Below are positions 2,843-54,704 of a DNA stretch of 64,000 bases, piece by piece. How positions within the stretch are numbered: the first letter of the stretch is position 1; every line of letters starts with the position of its first letter. Origin of the DNA: Hydrogenophaga sp. A37. Its GTDB lineage: Bacteria; Pseudomonadota; Gammaproteobacteria; Burkholderiales; Burkholderiaceae_C. The notes under the pieces are model-generated. The model was given only the letters and a program-made list of their open reading frames with translations, did no database searches and had not been told where the DNA came from. The DNA lies in NCBI RefSeq assembly GCF_002001205.1, contig NZ_MUNZ01000116.1, positions 1 to 64,000 on the forward strand. Direction: 5' to 3'. The translations under genes were made by a program, and so were the position numbers.

Positions 2843-4075
2843 TCAGAACGCGGGCAGCGGCCTCACACGGGGCACGTGCGCGGCGTGCCGCGCCATCACC
2901 TCCATGAACACCGCCTCCACCTGGGCGGCGATCTGCTGCCAGTCCAGCTGCACCACCCGCCCACGCGCGGGGGCGCGGGCCATGGCGATGCGCTCGGGAT
3001 GCGCGGCCAGCTCTCGGGCGCAGGCCACATAGGCCTGCGCATCGCCCACGGGCGCCAGCCAGCCCGAGTGGTGGTGCACCAGCCATTCCGAGGCCGCAGC
3101 GGTGTCGAAGGCGAGAACCGGCAAGCCGCTGGAGAGCGCCTCCAGTGTCACGTTGCCAAAGGTCTCGGTCAGGCTCGGAAACAGGCACAGATCGGCCGAC
3201 GCGTAGAACAGGGCCAGCTCATCCTGGCGGCGCTGCCCCACAAACGTGGCCTGCGGGCACCGCTGCCGAAGCGCCTCGCGCGCGGGGCCATCGCCCACAA
3301 ACACCAGCTTCACCGAGGGGTGCTTCGCGCGCATGGCATCAAAGGCCTGGATCGCGACGTCGAGGTTCTTCTCCGGCGCCAGGCGCCCCACCACCAGCGC
3401 CACCAGACTGTCCTCGTCGGCGCCCCAGCTGGCGCGCAACGCCGCGTTGCGCAGGTCCGGGCGAAACATCTGCGTGTCCACGCCCCGCGCCACCACGCGT
3501 GTGTTCTCAAAGCCGCTGCTGATCAGCTCGGCACACAGCGCGCGCGTGGGCACCATGGTGCACTGCGTGAGGTTGTGGAACTTGCGCAGGTAAGCCACGA
3601 TGGGCTTCTTCAGCCAGCCCAGGCCGTAATGCTGGCTGTAGCTGTGGAAGTTGGTGCGGAAGTCGGAGGTCACGGGCAGGCGCAGCTGGCGCGCGGCCTG
3701 CAACGCCGACCAGCCCAGCGGGCCTTCGGTCGCGATGTGCACGAGGTCTGGCCGCTGCAAGGCCCAGGCCGCGACCAGCGCCTTCTTACCCGGCAGGCCG
3801 AGCTTGAGCTGCGGGTAGCGGGGGATCGGCATGCCGCGCATCAGCACCTCTTCGAAACCGGCGTTGTCCGCCCCGCGCTCGCTCACGGTCTGGCGAGGCC
3901 GCACCAGTTGCACTTGGTGGTTGCGCTCGCACTGCCCCTGCACCAGACGCGACAGCGTCAGCGCCACACCGTTGACCTCGGGCGGCCAGGTCTCGGTGAC
4001 CACGGCGAGGCGAAGCGAGGGCCGGGACGCAGGGAATTCCTGCATCAGGATGTTTTGGGAGACGACTGTTTCCAT
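2843..4075 (-). CDS. GT4-family glycosyltransferase
   Basis: A 410-aa cytosolic or membrane-associated glycosyltransferase of family GT4 (GT-B fold). The N-terminal domain begins LRLAVVTETWPPEVNGV (about residues 21-37), the acceptor-side loop of PimB/SqdX/Agt-like enzymes. The C-terminal donor domain has VVGRLAPEKNL, FVGDGP and the EX7E motif in ETFGNVTLE. I chose ATG 4075 because GGAG lies 11 nt upstream; the frame also opens at 4126 and an ATG lies at 4045. The neighbours (MGDG-synthase-like transferase, phosphatidylserine decarboxylase) make a glycolipid acceptor plausible, but the substrate is inferred. Confidence 0.82.
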   Translation of the reverse strand: METVVSQNILMQEFPASRPSLRLAVVTETWPPEVNGVALTLSRLVQGQCERNHQVQLVRPRQTVSERGADNAGFEEVLMRGMPIPRYPQLKLGLPGKKALVAAWALQRPDLVHIATEGPLGWSALQAARQLRLPVTSDFRTNFHSYSQHYGLGWLKKPIVAYLRKFHNLTQCTMVPTRALCAELISSGFENTRVVARGVDTQMFRPDLRNAALRASWGADEDSLVALVVGRLAPEKNLDVAIQAFDAMRAKHPSVKLVFVGDGPAREALRQRCPQATFVGQRRQDELALFYASADLCLFPSLTETFGNVTLEALSSGLPVLAFDTAAASEWLVHHHSGWLAPVGDAQAYVACARELAAHPERIAMARAPARGRVVQLDWQQIAAQVEAVFMEVMARHAAHVPRVRPLPAF

Positions 4076-4162
4076 GTGCACATGATCTCCACGTGACAAA
4101 ACAGATTGATGACAAGCGCGCACCACGTGTCGCTTGCATGCGATGACTATGACATTCAGGTG

Positions 4163-4195
4163 GTGTCACAGGCCTTTCATCGGCCGTTCACATCA
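4163..4195 (+). promoter_or_regulatory. PhoB-box-like triple direct repeat
   Basis: Three consecutive 11-bp units (4163-4173 GTGTCACAGGC, 4174-4184 CTTTCATCGGC, 4185-4195 CGTTCACATCA) align on a TCA core. The first two follow the 7-4-7 layout of a Pho box (CTGTCAT, 4 nt, CTGTCAT). A weak -10-like CATCAT lies 10 nt after the second unit. The site is between the divergent GT4 gene and the Mpo1-like gene, in the orientation of the latter. It is a candidate site only. Confidence 0.4.
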
Positions 4196-4246
4196 TTGGC
4201 TCGCCCGGGTCGTCAGACCTGTTCCTTTGAACCACCGGAGAGCCCT

Positions 4247-4855
4247 GTGAGCGAATTCTTCAAGCAACTCGAGATCCAGCGTTGGGACGATCACCGCTAC
4301 TACCACCACAGCCGCGTCAACCAGGCCCTGCACTTCGTCAGCGCGCTCAGCTTTCTAGTGGCCTATGGCTGGCTGTTCGTCGACCCGGCCATCGCCGCGT
4401 TGATCGGCTGGCTGGTCTCGATGACGACGCGCCAGTCGGGCCACTTTTTCTTTGAGCCCAAGGGCTACGACCACGTCAACCAGGCCAGCCACGAACACAA
4501 AGAAGAGATCAAGGTCGGCTACAACCTGCAGCGCAAGGTGGTTCTGATGGCCCTGTGGGTGGCCGCCCCGCTGGCTTTGCTGGTGCAACCCGATCTGCTG
4601 GGCCTGGTGGAGCCGAACGACAGCTGGACAGGCTACCTGCGCCAGGTCGGCATGGCTTGGCTGGCGCTGGGGGTGGGCGGGCTGCTGTTCCGCACGGTGC
4701 ACCTGTTTGTCATCAAGGATGTGCAGACCGGTCTGGTGTGGATGACCAAGATATTGACCGACCCCTTCCACGACATCGCGCTGTACCACAAGGCCCCGCT
4801 GCAGTTGCTGCGCGGCGAGTGGATCGACCCGGCCTACCACGGCCAGCGCGGCTGA
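4247..4855 (+). CDS. Mpo1-like (DUF962-like) membrane protein
   Basis: A 202-aa membrane protein started at GTG 4247, with ACCGGAG ending 6 nt upstream. The His-rich N-terminus (DDHRYYHHSRVNQALHF, about residues 13-29) followed by two hydrophobic segments and GHFFFE (about 66-71) reproduces the H-x4-N-x3-H and GHFFFE pattern of Mpo1/YGL010w (DUF962) proteins. Yeast Mpo1 is an Fe-dependent dioxygenase that degrades 2-hydroxy fatty acids. The protein is somewhat longer than typical, with further membrane segments in the second half. The family link is motif-based; a lipid-modifying role fits the neighbours but is inferred. Confidence 0.6.
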   Translation: MSEFFKQLEIQRWDDHRYYHHSRVNQALHFVSALSFLVAYGWLFVDPAIAALIGWLVSMTTRQSGHFFFEPKGYDHVNQASHEHKEEIKVGYNLQRKVVLMALWVAAPLALLVQPDLLGLVEPNDSWTGYLRQVGMAWLALGVGGLLFRTVHLFVIKDVQTGLVWMTKILTDPFHDIALYHKAPLQLLRGEWIDPAYHGQRG

Positions 4856-4887
4856 CCCGGCACCACTCGCGACCGCCCGCCTTGAAC

Positions 4888-6537
4888 TCATCGCGCCAGC
4901 AGCGCGCCGAGCACCTCGCGCAGGATGCCGCGCCGGATGGCCCTGTTGCTCTGCCCGCCGCCCTGCCCCCACCAGCCTTGCGACTGCATGTCGCACCCGG
5001 CGAGCACAAAGCGCTGCAGCACCTGCTCAAAGTCGGCGTCGCTGAAGTTCAGGCTGAAGATCAGGCGCCCAGTGCCCACCCAGCTCAGTGCCAGACCGTG
5101 CCAGCGCAGGTAGTACTGGAGCAACCAGTTGTAGCGCGAGGGGTCGGTGTAGCCGATGGTCCAGATGCTGTGCATGTTCGTCGCGCGCATGGGCAGGCCC
5201 TCGGCGGCCATGGTGGCGTTGAAGCGCAGCGCGCGCGCATCCCAGCGCGCCTCCTGCCCGTCGTAGATGGCCTGCACCTCGGGCGTGTCCAGGCGGCGCA
5301 GGAAAGCGTTCATGCCGCCCATCACATACGGGTGGGCATTGAAGGTGCCGCGTGCGAAACACAGGTCGGCCGGGCGCTCGGGGCGGTAGCGCTGCATCAG
5401 CTCATGGCGCCCGCAGACCACACCCACCGGGTAACCGCCTGCCAGCGTCTTGCCGTAGGTGACCATGTCGGCCTTCACGCCGAAGTACTCCTGCGCACCG
5501 CCCGGCGCGAGCCGGAAACCGAGGAACACCTCGTCGAAGATCAGCACGATGCCGCGCTCGGTGCAGACCTCGCGCAGGCGCTGCAGCCAGGCGGTGTAGG
5601 CAGCCTTGTCGTAACCCGCCTGGCGGCTGCTGTCGACCAGCGCCGAGTCGGCCGGTGCGTTGCGGTTGGGGTGCAGGGCCTGCAGCGGGTTGACCAGCAC
5701 GCAGGCGATGTCTTTGCGCGTGCGCAAGACCTGCAGGCTGCGCTCGCTCAGGTCGGCCAGGGTGTGGGTCTCGCGCGGGGGCAGCGGGTTGCCCGGGCCG
5801 GGCTGCACGTCTTCCCACCAGCCGTGGTACGCGCCGCAGAAACGCACCAGGTGTTGGCGACGGGTGTGGTAACGCGCCAGGCGCACGGCCTGCATCACCG
5901 CCTCGGTGCCCGACATGTGGAAGGACACCTCGTCCAGCCCGGAGAGGGCGCGCAGCCGCGCGATGTTGTCGGCCACGCAAGGGTGGTACGCGCCGAGCAC
6001 TGGCCCGAAGTCCTGAGCCAGCGCCGCGCCCTCGGCCATGGTGGCCTTGTAGAAGTCCACGCCGAACACGTTGACGCCGTAGGAGCCGGTGAGGTCGATG
6101 AAGCGGTTACCGTCCAGATCGGTCAGGCTCACGCCCTCGGCCGATTGCACGAAGGCGCCCACCTTCAGCCGCTCGCTCACGATGGGGCTGAACTGGAAGG
6201 GCACGCGGTATTGGCCGGTGAACTGCAGATCGGCCAGTCCCTCGCGCGCCTGCGCGGTAAGCGCCAGGGTCTTGGCGTAGCGCTGCGCGAACCCGGCACA
6301 CAGGGTCTCGAAGGCCGCGCGCCGCTGCCAGGCCACCTCATCGGACACGCCGTCGCAGTTGAAGAACTTTTCCTCGTCGTAGGCGTAACCCGGCAGCAGC
6401 CGCGCCAGCCGCTTGGCCAAACGCGAATGGCCGGCGAGCGAGCGGTGCTTGGCGCGCGAGAGGTCGAGGCGGCGCTTGAGCGCCGGCAGGCCCAGCGCGA
6501 GCGCGGCGACCGGGAGGGCGTATTCGAAGACGGGCAT
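4888..6537 (-). CDS. class III PLP aminotransferase with N-terminal membrane segment
   Basis: A 549-aa fold-type I PLP enzyme resembling glutamate-1-semialdehyde aminomutase and omega-transaminases. Visible marks are GTEAVMQAVRLAR (phosphate-cup region), FDEVFLGFR (the Asp that contacts the PLP pyridine) and TYGKTLAGGYPVG (Schiff-base Lys). About 130 residues precede the usual start of the fold. They begin with a hydrophobic stretch (about residues 4-20) and a basic RRLDLSRAKHR segment, suggesting membrane tethering. It is divergent from the decarboxylase gene at 6598. Its amino donor and acceptor cannot be deduced; a lipid head-group role is speculation from context. Confidence 0.8.
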   Translation of the reverse strand: MPVFEYALPVAALALGLPALKRRLDLSRAKHRSLAGHSRLAKRLARLLPGYAYDEEKFFNCDGVSDEVAWQRRAAFETLCAGFAQRYAKTLALTAQAREGLADLQFTGQYRVPFQFSPIVSERLKVGAFVQSAEGVSLTDLDGNRFIDLTGSYGVNVFGVDFYKATMAEGAALAQDFGPVLGAYHPCVADNIARLRALSGLDEVSFHMSGTEAVMQAVRLARYHTRRQHLVRFCGAYHGWWEDVQPGPGNPLPPRETHTLADLSERSLQVLRTRKDIACVLVNPLQALHPNRNAPADSALVDSSRQAGYDKAAYTAWLQRLREVCTERGIVLIFDEVFLGFRLAPGGAQEYFGVKADMVTYGKTLAGGYPVGVVCGRHELMQRYRPERPADLCFARGTFNAHPYVMGGMNAFLRRLDTPEVQAIYDGQEARWDARALRFNATMAAEGLPMRATNMHSIWTIGYTDPSRYNWLLQYYLRWHGLALSWVGTGRLIFSLNFSDADFEQVLQRFVLAGCDMQSQGWWGQGGGQSNRAIRRGILREVLGALLAR

Positions 6538-6542
6538 GAGCG

Positions 6543-6558
6543 ATGACTTTCAGATGAC
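6543..6558 (-). promoter_or_regulatory. possible PhoB-type direct repeat
   Basis: Read on the minus strand, two GTCAT units lie 11 nt apart in the 60-bp gap between the aminotransferase (start 6537) and the decarboxylase (start 6598). The spacing matches the Pho-box period seen elsewhere in this block. The repeat sits almost against the aminotransferase start, so it would act on a start further inside, or on the divergent gene, or not at all. Confidence 0.2.
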
Positions 6559-6597
6559 TGCAATCCCGCGTTTCTATTTCACCCCCATGACACCCGT

Positions 6598-7509
6598 ATG
6601 AACCTGCGAGCCGCCGCTCAGCGCCTGGCGCTGAACGAAGACCTGAATTTCCTGCTGACCAACCGCGTGCCGCGCATCGCGCTCACGCGCTTCATGGGCT
6701 GGTGGAGCCGCATCCGCCACCGCTGGGTTCGGGATGCGTCGATGGCGGTCTGGAAGACCTTCTCCGACCTCGACCTGAGCGAGGCCCGAAAGACGCACTT
6801 CGACAGCCTGCACGACTGTTTCACCCGCGAACTCAAGCCCGGCCTGCGCCCGCTCGACGGCCGGCCCGGCGTGCTGACCAGCCCGAGCGACGGCATCGTC
6901 GGCGCCTGCGGCCGCATCGAGCCCTTGCAGGACGGCGCGGACGCCCAGCTGTTCCAGGCCAAGGGCTTCCCCTACCGGCTGCTCGACCTGCTGGGCGACG
7001 ATGCGCGCGGGCGCGATCTGGCGCGGCAGCTGCAGGGCGGAAGCTACGTGACGCTGCGGCTCACCTCCAGCATGTACCACCGCTTTCACGCGCCCTGCGA
7101 CGCCATGCTGGAGCACGTGACCTACATCAGCGGCGACACCTGGAACGTGAACCCCATCGCGCTCCAGCGCGTGGAGCGGCTGTTTTGCCGCAACGAGCGC
7201 GCGGTGTTGAGGCTGCGCCGGGCCGACGGCGGCCTGCTGGTGGTGGTGCCCGTGGCCGCCATCCTGGTGGCCAGCATGCGCCTGCGCGCGCTCGACGTGC
7301 CGCTCAACCTGCGCTACCGCGGCCCGCATCAGCTGCCCTGCTCGGCGCGCTACCAGCAGGGCGACGAACTCGGCTGGTTCGAGCACGGATCGACCATCCT
7401 CGTGCTCGCGCCGCCGGGCCTGGCGCCCGATTCCTCGCTGCAGAGCGGCCACCGCATCCGCATGGGCGAAGCCCTGCTGCACACCGCCTCCCACAGCCAC
7501 ACACCATGA
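6598..7509 (+). CDS. psd: phosphatidylserine decarboxylase-family protein
   Basis: A 303-aa protein of the PSD proenzyme family, which self-cleaves to form a pyruvoyl cofactor and converts phosphatidylserine to phosphatidylethanolamine at the inner membrane. Visible are the family segments TFSDLDLSEARKTHFDSLHD, SPSDGIVGACG, MYHRFHAPCD and the cleavage motif as HGST (residues 263-266; Ser265 would become the pyruvoyl group). The usual motif is LGST, so the first position differs but the reactive Gly-Ser-Thr is kept. The last four bases overlap the next ATG. The glycolipid-gene neighbourhood suggests this may be a specialised second PSD. Confidence 0.85.
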   Translation: MNLRAAAQRLALNEDLNFLLTNRVPRIALTRFMGWWSRIRHRWVRDASMAVWKTFSDLDLSEARKTHFDSLHDCFTRELKPGLRPLDGRPGVLTSPSDGIVGACGRIEPLQDGADAQLFQAKGFPYRLLDLLGDDARGRDLARQLQGGSYVTLRLTSSMYHRFHAPCDAMLEHVTYISGDTWNVNPIALQRVERLFCRNERAVLRLRRADGGLLVVVPVAAILVASMRLRALDVPLNLRYRGPHQLPCSARYQQGDELGWFEHGSTILVLAPPGLAPDSSLQSGHRIRMGEALLHTASHSHTP

Positions 7510-8681
7510 CCACCGTTGACCTGATCTATTTCAACGCCGGCGGCGGGCACCGTTCTTCGGCGCTCGCGCTGCAAGCCGTGCTGCGCGAACAGGGCCGCCC
7601 CTGGGACGTTCGTTTGGTCAACCTGTTCGAGGTGCTGGACCCCACCGGCCGCTTCCAGCGCATCACCGGCAAGGCGCCGGAGGACTGGTACAACCAGCGC
7701 CTGGCGCGCGGCTGGACCCTGGGCATGGCGCAGGAGCTCAAGCTGCTGCAAAGCCTGATCCGAGTGGCGCACCCTGCCCTGCTGCGGCGCCTGCGACGGC
7801 ACTGGCAGACCACGCGGCCCGACCTGGTGGTGTCGCTGATCCCGAACTTCAACCGCGCGCTCTGCGAGAGCCTGGACGCAGCCCTGCCCGGCGTGCCCTA
7901 CGTGACCGTGCTGACCGATCTGGCCGACTTCCCGCCCCATTTTTGGATCGAGCGCCATCCCTTGCAACACCTGGTCTGCGGTACGCCCCGGGCGGTCGAG
8001 CAGGCTCGGGCGCAGGGCCACGACGCGCAGCACGTGCACGCCACCTCGGGCATGGTCCTGCGCCCCGAGTTCTACCGGCCGGGCACCGTGAACCGGGCCG
8101 ACGAACAGCGCCGGCTGGGGCTCGACCCCGGGCGCCCGACCGGTCTGGTGCTGTTCGGCGGCCACGGCTCCAAGGCCATGCTGGGCATCGCCGAGCGGCT
8201 GATCGACACGCAGCTGATCCTGGTCTGCGGCCACAACACAAAGCTCGCTGACGCCTTGCGCGCGCTGCCCCAGGTGGCGCCGCGCCTCGTGGTCGGGTTC
8301 AGCACGGACATCCCGCGCTACATGCAGCTGGCGGACTTCCTGATCGGCAAGCCCGGGCCGGGCAGCGTGAGCGAGGCGGTGCAGCAGCAGCTACCGGTGA
8401 TCGTGGTGAACAACGCCTGGACCATGCCGCAGGAGCGCTATAACGCGCAGTGGATTGAAGAGAACCGGGTCGGTCTGGTGCTGCGCAGCTTCCGCTCCAT
8501 CGACCGGGGCGTGGCCCAGCTGCTGGGCGACCTCGACGCCTACCGCGCCAGCGTGCGCCAGGTCAACAACCGGGCGCTGTATGAGATCCCGGAGATCCTG
8601 GCCGGCCTGTTGCAAGGCGGGACGCCCGAGCGCCCCGCCGTCTCCATCTCAGATCAACGAAGGCCCGCGCAGTTGGCGTAG
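7506..8681 (+). CDS. MGDG-synthase-like glycosyltransferase (GT28/MurG-like)
   Basis: A 391-aa GT-B enzyme. The N-terminal [14 protein letters not shown] (residues about 8-21) is the Gly-rich acceptor loop of monogalactosyldiacylglycerol synthases and Mur[18 protein letters not shown] segment and the C-terminal [20 protein letters not shown] plus PQERYNA form the nucleotide-sugar site. It is coupled to the decarboxylase by a 4-nt ATGA overlap. Predicted reaction: transfer of a hexose from a UDP-sugar to a diacylglycerol-type lipid at the inner leaflet. The exact sugar and acceptor are unknown. Its 3' end overlaps the converging glycerophosphodiesterase by 28 nt. Confidence 0.8.
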
Positions 8682-9916
8682 AAAGTCGTGGTGGCGGGCC
8701 AGTCGGAGAACACGCCCATCACACCCACGTCTTTGGCCAGCACGTCGAGCACGCGCAGCATCTCGCCCTCGCTGGTGAGCGCCGAGTCCACCGTCTGGTA
8801 ATAGAAGCCGTTGTTGCCGTCGGCCAGGATGCCGGCGCGCTCCAGCGACCAGGTGATGAGGCCCAGCCCGGCCGCCTTGGCGTCGCGGGCGGCCTGCGAG
8901 GGCACGATTTTTCCCGCGGCGTCGGTGGCCATCAGTGCAAACAGCGGCGGTGCCCAGATGTTGATGCCCATCGACTTGTAGCCCGCCAGCTCGTTGTAGC
9001 TGGGCAGATCGGCCACGGTGTTGGCGTCGTCCAGGTAGACCGCCTGCTTGCCGAACGCGGCCTCGTTGCGCACCCAGTACACCACGTCGTTGATGTTGAA
9101 CGACTGCGCGAACACGTTGCGCGGCGGCACGCCGGCGCGCTTGTACTCGTCGATCATCTTCTGCGCGTAGGCGTCCTGCGTGAAGCCGTCGAAGGGCATG
9201 GTCACGCTGGCGCTCTTCAGCTCGGGCGTCATCTTCACGCCCAACCGTTTGAAGAGCTCGATGCTCTCGGCGTGGGTCATCAGCGTGCCGCTGCTCGGGC
9301 CCGAGTACAGATCGGTGCGGAAGTTGGCCGTGCCGCCCAGGTACTCGGCGGGCGTGCGCGCGGCGTTGTTGGACGCGTCCATCTTGCCGCGCAGGGTCTT
9401 GAACTCGGCCAGCGTGATGTCGCTGGTGCGGCATTCGGCGGTGGCGGGCGTGATCACCTTGCCGGTGGCGTCGAGCGTGGCGGGCACGAAGGGTTTGGTG
9501 CACTTGGCCGCCAGCGGCGTGACCAGGATGTTGGTGGTGGTGTGCAGGTCGTTCTGCGCGTGGCGGCAGACGAGTTCCTTGTCTTTGGTGAAGGTCACGT
9601 CGCACTCGACGATGCCCGCGCCCATGCGCGCCGCCGCGGTGTAGGACTCCACCGTGTGCTCGGGGAATTGCAGGGCTGCACCACGGTGGCCGATGGACCA
9701 GTCACGCGGGGTGAAATGCCCGCGCTGAGCACACTGTTTCAACTGGTTCTTGAGCGGGCTGTCGGCCATGTCGTCCACCAGAAAGAAAGGGCGCGGCCCG
9801 AGCTGCACGTGGGAAGGCCGGTCGGTGTTCCGGCCGTGCTTGTCGCCCTGTGGGGCGGCCATGGCAGCGCCACTGACGAACCCGAGCAACATCAAACCAA
9901 GGAGGGGAAGTCGCAT
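8654..9916 (-). CDS. secreted glycerophosphodiester phosphodiesterase
   Basis: A 420-aa GDPD/GlpQ-family enzyme that would hydrolyse glycerophosphodiesters to glycerol 3-phosphate plus an alcohol in the periplasm. ATG 9916 was chosen over upstream starts because GAGG lies 8 nt before it and it yields a clear Sec signal ([20 protein letters not shown]). The catalytic region shows [16 protein letters not shown] and [14 protein letters not shown], giving the His-Arg, Glu and Asp residues of the family. GDPDs are common Pho-regulon members, which fits the putative Pho-type repeats at 10.05 kb. Confidence 0.9.
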
Positions 9917-10048
9917 GAGATACCTCAAGAAGGATGGGAAAAGAAAGCCGGTGCGCCGGAAGGGGCGAGGCGCCTTCATCCTAGAAACGCTGTGTGGCAA
10001 TGGTGTGGCAGTTGAATGCACTGTCGCATCAACAGGCCACCGATGGGC

Positions 10049-10104
10049 GCTTCACATGACGGTCACAGGGTTGTCACGGGAACAGGGCACCGCTCCGATA
10101 TGCT
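10049..10104 (+). promoter_or_regulatory. PhoB-box-like triple repeat with -10 element
   Basis: Three 11-bp-spaced units (TTCAC 10051-10055, GTCAC 10062-10066, GTCAC 10073-10077) precede TATGCT at 10099-10104, with 21 nt between the last unit and the hexamer. The same triple repeat, hexamer and spacing recur at 12.23-12.29 kb. The promoter would point right, toward the M14 peptidase gene and antisense to the small gene at 10134-10325. It also lies upstream of the divergent GDPD gene. Confidence 0.4.
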
Positions 10105-10133
10105 GCTCGCACGCCGGGTCAGCGCAGGACAGG

Positions 10134-10325
10134 TCAGCCCCGTCGACCGACCGATGGCCACCCATCGTCCAGTGCACTGTGGTGCTGGCGTTGAAAGCGC
10201 GAGCGCTGCAAGGCGAGGAACTCCACCAGGCCGGTGGCCCAACCACAGGCCATCACGCCCAGGTGCACCCAGTGGCGGATCTCCAGGCGCTTTGCGCGCC
10301 GCTGCAACGGGCTCTGAACCAACAT
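10134..10325 (-). CDS. small membrane protein (63 aa)
   Basis: A 63-aa reading frame with AAGG 6 nt before its ATG. It has a basic N-terminus (RRAKRLEIRHW) and one hydrophobic helix (about residues 19-40, HLGVMACGWATGLVEFLALQ) followed by a basic anchor. I recall similar small Comamonadaceae proteins but cannot name a family. It lies alone between the GDPD and M14 genes. A two-unit Pho-type repeat precedes it on the same strand. Confidence 0.5.
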   Translation of the reverse strand: MLVQSPLQRRAKRLEIRHWVHLGVMACGWATGLVEFLALQRSRFQRQHHSALDDGWPSVGRRG

Positions 10326-10360
10326 GCGATACCTTGGGCAAATGGGTGGTGGGTCTCACC

Positions 10361-10392
10361 ACCGTAGTGCCCCCCTGTGACAACACCGTGAC
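10361..10392 (-). promoter_or_regulatory. PhoB-box-like repeat upstream of the 63-aa gene
   Basis: On the minus strand two GTCAC units lie exactly 11 nt apart (10392-10388 and 10381-10377). They are followed 10 nt downstream by a -10-like TACGGT (10366-10361). This is the 7-4-7 plus about 10 nt geometry of classical Pho promoters. The start of the small gene is a further 35 nt downstream. Confidence 0.4.
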
Positions 10393-10401
10393 GACGATCC
10401 C

Positions 10402-11424
10402 ATGACCCCCCACCACCGACCATTGCCCGAGCTGCAGGCGCTGGAGCAGCTCATCGAGCAGGGCGGCACCCACCTGCAGACCCGTGAGGTCCGGCGCGTC
10501 TCGGTGCCGGGCGGGCCGAGCTTCCCGATCCACGCCATCACGCTGGGCAACCCCGACCCCAGCCTGCCTGCCGTGGGTTACTTCGGCGGCGTGCACGGGC
10601 TGGAGCGCATCGGGGCCGAGGTGGTGATCGCCTTTCTGCAGAACATCGTCACCCGCCTGCGCTGGGACACCACGCTGCAGCGCCAGCTGGAGAGCGTGCG
10701 CCTGGTGTTCATGCCCATCGTCAACCCCGGCGGCATGTGGGCCGCCACCCGCGCCAACCCGCGCGGCGTGGACCTGATGCGCAACGCGCCGGTGGATTCC
10801 CTCGAAAAGGTGCCGCACCTGATGGGCGGACAGCGCCTGAGCGCGGGCTTGCCCTGGTACCGGGGGCGGCTGGGCGACCCGCTGGAGGTGGAGGCCGAGG
10901 CTTTGTGCGAGGTGGTGCGCACCGAGCTGCTGGGCCGCCCGTTCAGCCTGGCGCTCGACTGCCACTCGGGCTTCGGCGTCAGTGACCGCCTGTGGTTTCC
11001 GTATGCCCACACCCGGGCACCCATTCAGCACCTGGCGGAGCTGCACGCGCTGAAGGACATCTTCGTGCAGGCCCACAGCCAGCACCCCTACATCATCGAA
11101 CCGCAGAGCGCGCAATATCTGACGCACGGCGACCTGTGGGACCACCTGTACCAGCAGGCCTGCGAGAATCATCCGACGACCACGTTTTTGCCACTGACGC
11201 TGGAGATGGGTTCCTGGTTGTGGATCAAGAAGAACCCACGCCAGCTGTTTTCTCGCAAGGGCATCTTCAACCCGCTGATCAACCACCGCCAGCAGCGCGT
11301 GCTGCGCCGCCACCAGGCGCTGCTGGATTTTCTGTCAAGGGCCGCGAGCAGCCACGCGCTCTGGACACCGGCCGCAGAACAGCGCGCACAGCGCCAAGCC
11401 GATGCACTGGCCGACTGGTATTGA
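10402..11424 (+). CDS. M14-family zinc carboxypeptidase
   Basis: A 340-aa metallocarboxypeptidase-fold protein without an evident signal peptide. The zinc ligands are visible: HGLE (His65, Glu68) and DCHSG (His188). The Glu in LTLEMGSW (about 268) fits the catalytic general base, and NPRGVDLMRN supplies the substrate-carboxylate Arg region. DUF2817 or succinylglutamate-desuccinylase-like subgroups share this layout, so the substrate (peptide, murein peptide or small amide) is open. A 20-nt gap separates it from the downstream hydrolase, so they may be co-transcribed. Confidence 0.8.
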   Translation: MTPHHRPLPELQALEQLIEQGGTHLQTREVRRVSVPGGPSFPIHAITLGNPDPSLPAVGYFGGVHGLERIGAEVVIAFLQNIVTRLRWDTTLQRQLESVRLVFMPIVNPGGMWAATRANPRGVDLMRNAPVDSLEKVPHLMGGQRLSAGLPWYRGRLGDPLEVEAEALCEVVRTELLGRPFSLALDCHSGFGVSDRLWFPYAHTRAPIQHLAELHALKDIFVQAHSQHPYIIEPQSAQYLTHGDLWDHLYQQACENHPTTTFLPLTLEMGSWLWIKKNPRQLFSRKGIFNPLINHRQQRVLRRHQALLDFLSRAASSHALWTPAAEQRAQRQADALADWY

Positions 11425-11444
11425 AGACAAGGAAGGACCGCAGC

Positions 11445-12203
11445 ATGAACACCTGGATCTTTCTCCGTGGCCTGACGCGCGAAGCCGCGCACTGGGGCCG
11501 CTTCACCGCCGACTTCAAACAAGCCCTGCCCCGCGCGCGCATCCACACGCTGGACCTGCCGGGCAATGGCGAACACCACCGACAGACGAGCCCACTCTCG
11601 GTGGCGGACATGGTGACCGCCTGCCGCATGGAGTGCGCCCGCCGCGACATCGAGACCCCGGTGTACCTGCTCGCCATGTCTCTCGGCGCCATGGTGGCGG
11701 CCGAGTGGGCGCGCGTGGCGCCCGAGGAGCTCAAAGGCTGCGTGCTGATCAACACCAGCATGCGGCCGTTCAGCCCCCTGCCCCAGCGGCTCCGGCCCGC
11801 CAACTACCCGGCCTTGCTGGGCCTGACCCTGCGCGGGGGCTCGCCCGAAGCCATCGAACAGACGGTGCTGCGGCTCACCAGCAACCAGCCGGGAGAACTG
11901 CGCGAGGTGATTCCCGACTGGTCGGCCGTGCGCCGCCTGCGCCCGGTGAGCGCCGGCAACGCCATGCGCCAGCTGCTCGCCGCCGCCCGCTACCGCGCAC
12001 CCCGGCAAGCCCCTGGCGTACCCATGCTGCTGCTGTCCAGCGAGCACGACCAGCTGGTGGACAGCCGCTGCTCGCAGGCCATCGCCAGCGCCTGGCACTG
12101 CCCGTTGCGGACACACCCGGCCGCGGGCCACGACCTGCCGCTGGACGACCCACGCTGGGTGACGGGGCAGGTGTGCGCCTGGCTGCGCCGTGGCCACGGC
12201 TGA
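11445..12203 (+). CDS. alpha/beta hydrolase
   Basis: A 252-aa alpha/beta-hydrolase-fold protein. ATG 11445 is preceded by AAGGAAGGA. The nucleophile elbow is AMSLGAM (Ser at about residue 83), with an acidic residue in SSEHDQLVD and His in GHDLPLDD near the C-terminus completing the triad. No signal peptide is seen, so it is probably cytosolic. It follows the M14 gene closely. Substrate unknown; the short lid region suggests a small ester or thioester. Confidence 0.8.
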   Translation: MNTWIFLRGLTREAAHWGRFTADFKQALPRARIHTLDLPGNGEHHRQTSPLSVADMVTACRMECARRDIETPVYLLAMSLGAMVAAEWARVAPEELKGCVLINTSMRPFSPLPQRLRPANYPALLGLTLRGGSPEAIEQTVLRLTSNQPGELREVIPDWSAVRRLRPVSAGNAMRQLLAAARYRAPRQAPGVPMLLLSSEHDQLVDSRCSQAIASAWHCPLRTHPAAGHDLPLDDPRWVTGQVCAWLRRGHG

Positions 12204-12232
12204 CACGGTGCCTTCGCGCCCCTTTCACCGCC

Positions 12233-12288
12233 CGATCACACAAGCGTCACATTTCCGTCATCAAACCCGAGACCCTCGCCGGTATGCT
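12233..12288 (+). promoter_or_regulatory. PhoB-box-like triple repeat with -10 element
   Basis: Units ATCAC (12235-12239), GTCAC (12246-12250) and GTCAT (12257-12261) are spaced by exactly 11 nt. The last two fit the Pho box 7-4-7 pattern with an AT-rich ATTT spacer. A TATGCT hexamer at 12283-12288 follows after 21 nt, identical in sequence and spacing to the site at 10.05-10.10 kb. It lies 70 nt before the 98-aa protein gene. Confidence 0.5.
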
Positions 12289-12357: not shown

Positions 12358-12654
12358 ATGAGAGCCTTGAAAAAAGCCCGAAAACTGATCGAAAACAAAT
12401 CCGGAAAACCGGCCGCCGACATCGTGTCGCGCCTGGTGCTTGCACTCGAATCCGAGGTGCCGTTCCTGCTGTCGGACCTGTACAGCCTGGACTACGACGA
12501 CTTCAACCTGGCCATGGAGGTCATGGCCGAATGGCGGCTTGACCGCTACTACACCAGCAAGGCCGTGTTGCTGGACCTGTCCATGCAGGAGACCCTTCAC
12601 AAACCCCAGACCAGCGCCGAGGCCCCCAAGGCGGCGGTCGCGAAGGCCGACTGA
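12358..12654 (+). CDS. conserved hypothetical protein (98 aa)
   Basis: A 98-aa soluble, probably helical protein: basic N-terminus (MRALKKARKLIENK), an amphipathic middle, and a short Ala/Lys/Glu-rich tail. ATG 12358 has GAGAA about 9 nt upstream; an in-frame GTG at 12343 would add five residues. No known domain is recognised. It stands alone, bounded by a PhoB-like promoter upstream and a strong terminator downstream, so it appears to be an independent transcription unit, perhaps phosphate-responsive. Confidence 0.7.
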   Translation: MRALKKARKLIENKSGKPAADIVSRLVLALESEVPFLLSDLYSLDYDDFNLAMEVMAEWRLDRYYTSKAVLLDLSMQETLHKPQTSAEAPKAAVAKAD

Positions 12655-54435: not shown

Positions 54436-54549
54436 GGCGGTGGCCCGTCCAATCAGAGAAGAAGGAGTTGCAACCACCGCCCGCAAGGGCAGGTGAGCTG
54501 CAAACGGAGTGCCTGTCTGACGCAGGCTCTCTCAGTCAAATGAATCTCA

Positions 54550-54704
54550 AGAAGCGGTCAAGGCGAAAGTCGCCAAGCGAAGCGAGGCGATACCCACCAA
54601 GGGCACCCAGGGTCCGGCTCCGCCGGCCCTATGGTGCCGTCCCCCCTCCAAGCGCCGAAGGCGCGCCAGAGAGGGGGGAAGCCGCAAAGCGGCGCAGGGG
54701 GGAG
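54550..54704. repeat. intergenic palindromic repeats between frcC and frcB
   Basis: Hairpins GCGAAGCGAGGCG, CCGGCTCCGCCGG and AGCGCCGAAGGCGC, then GCCGCAAAGCGGC flanked by CCCCCCTC/GAGGGGGG tracts. The stems would form in the frcB-frcC transcript and may favour a higher level of the binding protein by mRNA processing. Confidence 0.6.

Follow-up and report, generated by a model that had tools for sequence, protein, structure and literature searches.

The window analysed here comprises the first 64 kb of contig NZ_MUNZ01000116.1 (C108) of Hydrogenophaga sp. A37, the genome of which is 5.55 Mb in size and distributed over 195 contigs. Its block at 4.1-12.4 kb combines genes related to lipid metabolism with candidate promoters of the phosphate-starvation (Pho) type. 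The gene for a GT4 family glycosyltransferase, Agt-like by resemblance (2843-4075, minus strand; Pfam PF13692/PF00534), is in divergent orientation to a gene for an Mpo1-like (DUF962-type) helical protein (4247-4855, plus). They are followed by the genes for a class III aminotransferase with an N-terminal extension of about 125 residues (4888-6537, minus; PF00202 at residues 128-510), a phosphatidylserine decarboxylase (PSD) homologue (6598-7509, plus; PF02666, and TIGR00163 above cut-off), an MGDG-synthase-like glycosyltransferase overlapping the PSD gene (7506-8681, plus; PF04101) and a glycerophosphodiester phosphodiesterase (GDPD; 8654-9916, minus; PF03009). Further on, ORF and motif searches revealed a small open reading frame (ORF) of 63 amino acids with the motif GLVEFLALQRSR (10134-10325, minus), and the gene at 12358-12654 (plus) encodes a 98-aa protein, which is unassigned to a family, with no Pfam or NCBIfam match at E <= 0.001. 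M14, hydrolase and phytase-like genes are additional neighbours.

The gene-free DNA of this block contains direct repeats with TCA units spaced 11 nt apart. Five such arrays, at 4163-4195, 6543-6558 (minus), 10049-10081, 10377-10392 (minus) and 12233-12265, had been listed in an initial annotation of the sequence, and all five are present at these positions and on these strands. The last one had been described as three units and actually has four, with TCA at 12225, 12236, 12247 and 12258. We found an additional site, TTCATACGGGTGTCAT at 6587-6602 on the minus strand, which had been overlooked. With the strict two-unit motif defined as [GT]TCA[CT]N6[GT]TCA[CT], the window harbours eight sites, the midpoints of which all fall in gene-free DNA of the block. 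Seven of the eight lie wholly inside the 902 gene-free bases of the block, while the mean after dinucleotide shuffling was 0.054 and none of 2000 shuffles reached seven; none occurs in the 4496 gene-free bases that the window has elsewhere. Counted over the whole genome, strict sites number 94, versus 34 for the reversed pattern used as a control, and 22 three-unit TCA matches versus one in the control; eight of the 94 and four of the 22 are located in these approximately 8 kb. Thus, according to the shuffle and genome counts, the 11-nt TCA pattern is not equally frequent in unrelated gaps. Scanning the genomic sites for a downstream TANNNT hexamer gave four occurrences at +11 and three at +22, and at most two at every other offset from 3 to 33, among the 49 sites called intergenic (a number which is too high, since gene calling was empty on some contigs). 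Among the 45 coding sites, TANNNT was found at neither +11 nor +22. Elsewhere in the window, a lone three-unit TCA match is located in a GC-rich gap at 54536-54560 (plus).

For comparison we used the best 80 of at least 591 confirmed stretches from named genomes searched with the aminotransferase of the window (loci are designated by L, contigs by C), and counts of gene clusters in these 80 loci exclude the window's own copy. The core genes are well retained in them: the aminotransferase was found in 76 loci, the Mpo1-like protein in 75, and PSD and GT4 in 69 each. The gap between the Mpo1-like gene and the GT4 gene could be excised in 74 loci. On the strand of the Mpo1-like gene, where the window has the Pho-type box GTCACAGGCCTTTCAT (4165-4180) followed by the -10-like CATCAT (4191-4196) 11 nt past the second TCA, a strict box is present in 72 of the 74 loci (L170 and L172 have none). 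In promoters with a single box, the hexamer.A..[AC]T or TAG..T is located exactly at +11 in 57 of 58 (the miss is L186). When a choice between boxes was allowed,.A...T was present at +11 in 97%, and none of the other offsets between 4 and 30 exceeded 12%. Positions beyond the box and the -10 hexamer carry mostly near-zero information. In 12 of these gaps (L143, L144, L152, L158, L161, L168, L173, L176, L178, L179, L180 and L193) a second two-unit pair was seen by eye 13 nt past the first one, overlapping the -10-like hexamer, as if such promoters could be both switched on and blocked.

The divergent GT4 promoter is built from the box TGTCATCAATCTGTTTTGTCAC (4093-4114, minus), which has a degenerate second unit and was found with a loose pattern, and from the -10-like GATCAT (4082-4087, minus), which we placed by eye, since the window was not scorable with the anchor used. 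Read on the strand of GT4, 67 of 75 sequences, including the window, match the loose pattern GTCA[TC]N6GT. Among the 63 promoters that could be scored, 59 have.A..[AC]T at the expected offset, with a fraction of at most 0.09 at other offsets. In the window, only 6 nt separate GATCAT from the used ATG (4073-4087, minus). Either the GT4 message is almost without a leader, or its true start codon is a later in-frame ATG at 4043-4045.

At the aminotransferase gene, the overlooked box at 6587-6602 overlaps the start codon of the PSD gene and is followed by the -10-like TAGAAA (6571-6576, minus). Of 80 sequences, counting the window and leaving out L185 as too short, 74 contain the pattern [GT]TCAN7GTCA, and 72 of these 74 boxed promoters have TA at +11. 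The previously listed site GTCATCTGAAAGTCAT (6543-6558, minus) lies between the -10 hexamer and the start codon, and its form is retained in L118-L122 only. Because the conserved box with its -10 sits at 6587-6602, we set 6543-6558 aside as an activating operator of the aminotransferase gene, which it probably is not. Since other two-unit matches occur in the same stretch in L140, L141, L142 and L145, it is possibly a secondary downstream site. The arrangement extends beyond close relatives. Among the matches listed, the closest named relatives of the aminotransferase are mostly from Hydrogenophaga, and in a sample of 398 genomes drawn from the phylum, 25 carry it at E <= 1e-100, the own genome included. 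Among the 21 loci that belong to other orders, 14 have both the Mpo1-like gene and PSD at a distance of up to 1.5 kb, and six show GTCAT-N6-GTCAG followed after 11 nt by TAG.

The 98-aa gene is preceded by the four-unit array (12224-12261, plus) and by TATGCT (12283-12288), a -10-like hexamer 22 nt past the last TCA. It had been noted that TATGCT is common to two sites, at 10099-10104 and 12283-12288, and that it follows the last NTCAN unit at 21 nt; this holds and equals 22 nt past the last TCA. A strict two-unit site is present in the window and in all nine orthologous 98-aa loci detected among the 80, and in 10 out of 10 promoters (window plus nine) TA[TA][GC]CT is found exactly 22 nt past the last TCA, with a -10-like hexamer at +11 in none of them. 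A search of 150 genomes of the family gave 19 homologues of the 98-aa protein, or 17 when the own protein and L276, for which there was no alignment, are left out. Among these, the clean 22-nt pattern was found in L267 and, by eye and with one half-site, in L266; L265, L268 and L270 show 23 nt by eye, and 12 of the 17 have neither spacing. Because homologues elsewhere in the family mostly lose this geometry, it is a feature of the present locus in close relatives. As a general rule, the 22-nt spacing was rejected on the basis of these 17 homologues and of the short spacing in the GT4, Mpo1-like and aminotransferase promoters. The earlier proposal that the spacing is longer than the classical one thus applies to the 98-aa gene, as an exception among promoters with the classical short spacing. 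Another strict box of the genome (L032, C35:4775-4790) has TAAGCT at 22 nt and lies 94 nt upstream of a predicted gene.

The region at 10 kb is less clear. The Pho-type box GTCACGGTGTTGTCAC (10377-10392, minus) precedes the small ORF and is followed by the -10-like TACGGT (10361-10366). By motif search, with no alignment, ORFs with the same motif were found in seven relatives (L119, L121, L122, L124, L125, L131 and L150), and one GTCA unit followed after 11 nt by TANNNT precedes the ORF in the window and in six of the seven. L120, which is outside these seven, shows both units by eye. On the opposite strand, the three-unit array TTCAC/GTCAC/GTCAC (10050-10078, plus), the target of which is uncertain, is followed by TATGCT (10099-10104) 22 nt past the last TCA; the same arrangement was found in L120 only, there by eye for the hexamer.

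The window shares its box with the organism's own pstS promoter. The gene pstS (C134:23484-24515, minus) is followed by genes interpreted as those of pst transport and as phoU, and then by the PhoB equivalog, the orthologue being identified by a TIGR02154 match of 322 bits (cut-off 296). Its promoter contains GTCACAGACATGTCAC and, 11 nt past the last TCA, TAGAGT. In the genus, GTCA-N7-GTCA is found within 110 nt of the pstS start in 19 of 20 loci, the own one included (the exception is L216), and the boxed promoters share the consensus TAgAGT at this spacing; seven pstS loci from other families are not part of the count. Pairs of TGTCA-type units with the 11-bp spacing, strict or near-strict, are likewise found at the Mpo1-like, aminotransferase and 98-aa promoters, and a -10 at about 11 nt is present at the core promoters, not at 12224-12288 and 10050-10104, where it lies at 22 nt. 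Elsewhere in the same genome, L228 (C161:1-9500) is a Pho island by resemblance, with genes for a polyphosphate kinase, a second GT4, a PlcP-like phosphoesterase, an OlsB-like acyltransferase, a boxed PhoX-like phosphatase and a PPK2-like protein; the GT4 and the OlsB-like protein were confirmed at the family level and the remaining labels are by resemblance.

The core cluster is also linked to Pho genes. At least one gene from twelve Pho-type clusters lies within 10 kb in 49 of the 80 loci. Pfam confirmed one member each of PhoX, PhoU, PPK2, the calcineurin-like phosphoesterase (labelled PlcP-like), the OmpR-type regulator (PhoB cluster) and an Acetyltransf_5 protein (labelled OlsB-like); the labels PstA, PstB, PstC, PhoR, Ppx and Ppk1 are our reading of the sequences. 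In a single common test, a strict box in the sense direction was found upstream of the Mpo1-like gene in 67 of 69 cases, of the aminotransferase gene in 42 of 66 (62 of 66 with a looser pattern) and of the 98-aa gene in eight of nine. The same test gave 16/22 for PhoX, 12/12 for PPK2, 4/6 for OlsB-like genes, 2/3 for Ppk1, 8/11 for an MFS transporter and 10/20 for UDP-glucose dehydrogenase. No such box was found before the control genes UvrD (0/10), PolA (0/11), GuaC (0/10) and porin (0/6), or before two further neighbour clusters (0/13 and 0/4). PhoB, PhoU, PstA and PstC each gave 0/2.

Based on these comparisons, the block is very probably a set of Pho promoters on a lipid gene cluster, most likely belonging to the PhoB regulon. 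A locally coordinated phosphate-starvation regulon had been suggested in the initial annotation; the pstS box, the conservation of boxes and -10 hexamers and the linkage to Pho genes support it, and from them we infer control by phosphate.

Several observations weigh against this interpretation. Related species are not independent, so the counts do not equal events. A strict two-TCA box precedes GT4 in only 11 of 67 cases, six aminotransferase promoters have no box (L124, L125, L131, L159, L166 and L186), and 15 of the 21 loci outside the order do not have the GTCAT-N6-GTCAG form. Some -10 hexamers (GATCAT, CATCAT, GACCAT) are far from TATAAT. The third, downstream unit at 4187 was found, by eye, beyond the window in the nearest relative L120 only; none of the seven relatives retains both units of the small-ORF box, and six of them have just the half-site; and most 98-aa homologues of the family do not show the 22-nt pattern. 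In the strict sense-box test, the Pho-labelled genes PlcP-like (0/5), PstB (1/11), Ppx (0/6) and PhoR (0/5) scored low, and 35 of 409 unlabelled genes had a box. The boxless Pho genes may be inner operon genes, which this upstream test does not sort out. Finally, the box was found upstream of PSD in 0/60, GDPD in 0/3, M14 in 1/8 and phytase-like genes in 0/3 cases; the hydrolase gave 0/3.

The last result bears on the earlier assumption that the surrounding genes are all plausible Pho members. GT4, the Mpo1-like gene and the aminotransferase gene are boxed, GDPD, PSD, M14 and the phytase-like gene have no conserved box of their own directly upstream, and their Pho control could at most result from read-through from neighbours. 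There is an even chance that Pho control is limited to GT4, the Mpo1-like gene, the aminotransferase gene, the 98-aa gene and perhaps the small ORF, with GDPD, M14, the hydrolase and the phytase-like gene as bystanders, whose gene clusters are represented in just three, eight, seven and five of the 80 loci, respectively. On the other hand, GDPD follows the small ORF on the same strand, and transcription from 10377-10392 could reach it; the array at 10050-10078 points at M14, with a leader of approximately 290 nt, and is kept in L120; and for two of these neighbours the number of testable loci was very small.

It is also conceivable, albeit improbable, that another response regulator of the OmpR family reads the 11-bp direct repeats and that the signal is not phosphate. 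OmpR-family regulators often bind direct repeats of 10-11 bp, and the PhoB profile has 89 matches at E <= 0.001 in the genome, one of them above the cut-off. PhoB is favoured instead by the motif itself, which recurs at 19 of 20 pstS loci as well as upstream of homologues of phoX and ppk2, and by the Pho-type genes linked to the core cluster. That the repeats are chance or codon-phase products of a GC-rich genome, in which spacings in multiples of three (24, 30 and 33) yield high counts within genes, is very improbable in view of the location of all eight strict 11-nt sites in the gene-free DNA of one block, the shuffling results and the conservation of the box amid flanking positions of mostly near-zero information; conservation refutes it at the core sites, and it may still apply to 6543-6558, to the third unit at 4187 and to 54536-54560.

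If the block is controlled by PhoB, phosphorylated PhoB would bind the 11-bp direct repeats as a tandem dimer when phosphate is short. In the promoters of GT4, the Mpo1-like gene and the aminotransferase gene, and with less certainty in that of the small ORF, the box occupies the position of the -35 region and the -10 follows after exactly 11 nt, like in pstS. The four-unit array of the 98-aa gene would place PhoB one repeat further upstream, at or just above a weak -35. The induced genes would probably move the membrane composition away from phospholipids.

The encoded proteins are compatible with such a role. The best solved relative of the aminotransferase is a chain of mycosubtilin synthase subunit A (6kfm). 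The aminotransferase domain of mycosubtilin synthase makes a beta-amino fatty acyl group by transferring an amine onto a beta-keto fatty acyl chain. Among 42 orthologues of the Mpo1-like protein, which have 41 invariant columns, 39 match PF06127 at E <= 0.01; the family match is weak, and the protein of the window is under the curated cut-off. Its predicted model is confident (pLDDT 88) and helical, and a fold search with it gave no PDB match at E <= 0.001 (best E 0.85). For the second glycosyltransferase (7506-8681), the best solved relative is MGDG synthase (4wyi). With regard to GT4 and the glucosyl- or glucuronosyl-diacylglycerol of the PlcP-Agt glycolipid pathway, UDP-glucose dehydrogenase family genes are located nearby in 20 of the 80 loci. 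We consider exchange of membrane lipids under phosphate stress the likeliest role of the block. More tentatively, and with the odds somewhat against it, PSD, the class III aminotransferase, the Mpo1-like protein and GT4 could form an undescribed Pho-controlled pathway to a phosphorus-free amino- or aminoglyco-lipid. The aminotransferase would then provide an amino-acyl group, the Mpo1-like protein and the decarboxylase would process the chain or the head, and GT4 would add a sugar. We call the pathway undescribed solely on the basis that the literature titles and abstract openings listed (preprints and most subscription papers being outside the scope) contained nothing on this module; in the main texts of PMC11631085, PMC9239053 and PMC6445935, the words 'aminotransferase' and 'decarboxylase' are both absent.

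The module is apparently uncharacterised and widely conserved, and is tied to phosphate starvation by purely comparative evidence. Its carriers include many Limnohabitans, Hydrogenophaga and relatives, groups that are known to live in fresh water, a habitat in which phosphate is often growth-limiting. Exact candidate operators can be named (4093-4114, 4165-4180, 6587-6602 and 12224-12261), and one 8-kb region offers a natural pair of putative PhoB promoter geometries, with 11 nt and 22 nt to the -10.

In Escherichia coli, too, the distance between Pho box and -10 is 11 nt. According to the sections of the publications considered here, the E. coli Pho box has a consensus of the CTGTCAT-N4-CTGTCAY type (PMC3465305), lies near the -10 and substitutes for the -35 (PMC4971064). 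The boxes of the window resemble it in that a pair of TGTCA-type units, spaced by 11 bp, takes the place of the -35; they differ in the GC-rich spacer, which is A/T-rich in E. coli, in the second unit, which is often TTCAY, and in the -10, which is often SANNAT. For the 22-nt arrangement of the 98-aa gene, a parallel is found in the pdtA/phdA system of Pseudomonas aeruginosa, where, in the part of the source covered, the Pho box lies upstream of the -35 with repeats at about -40 to -56, and PhoB acts with the extracytoplasmic function (ECF) sigma factor VreI (PMC4971064). The box at the 98-aa gene is similarly upstream of a -35, which we placed by eye. In contrast to that ECF-dependent system, the TATGCT -10 looks sigma-70-like.

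Another close parallel is PlcP-Agt lipid remodelling under phosphate stress, for which the sections considered describe Pho boxes before GT4-type lipid glycosyltransferases (PMC8528852, PMC9239053). In agreement with this, a Pho-type box precedes GT4 in the window. No calcineurin-like gene was found among the proteins of the block, so that a PlcP gene beside the Agt-type GT4 is not seen there; the PlcP-like gene of the genome lies on C161, beside the second GT4 and the OlsB-like and PhoX-like genes, and a PlcP-like gene is found within 10 kb in 11 of the relatives' loci. Unlike the PlcP-Agt system, as far as it is described in these sections, the core in the window also comprises the PSD homologue, the class III aminotransferase and the Mpo1-like protein.

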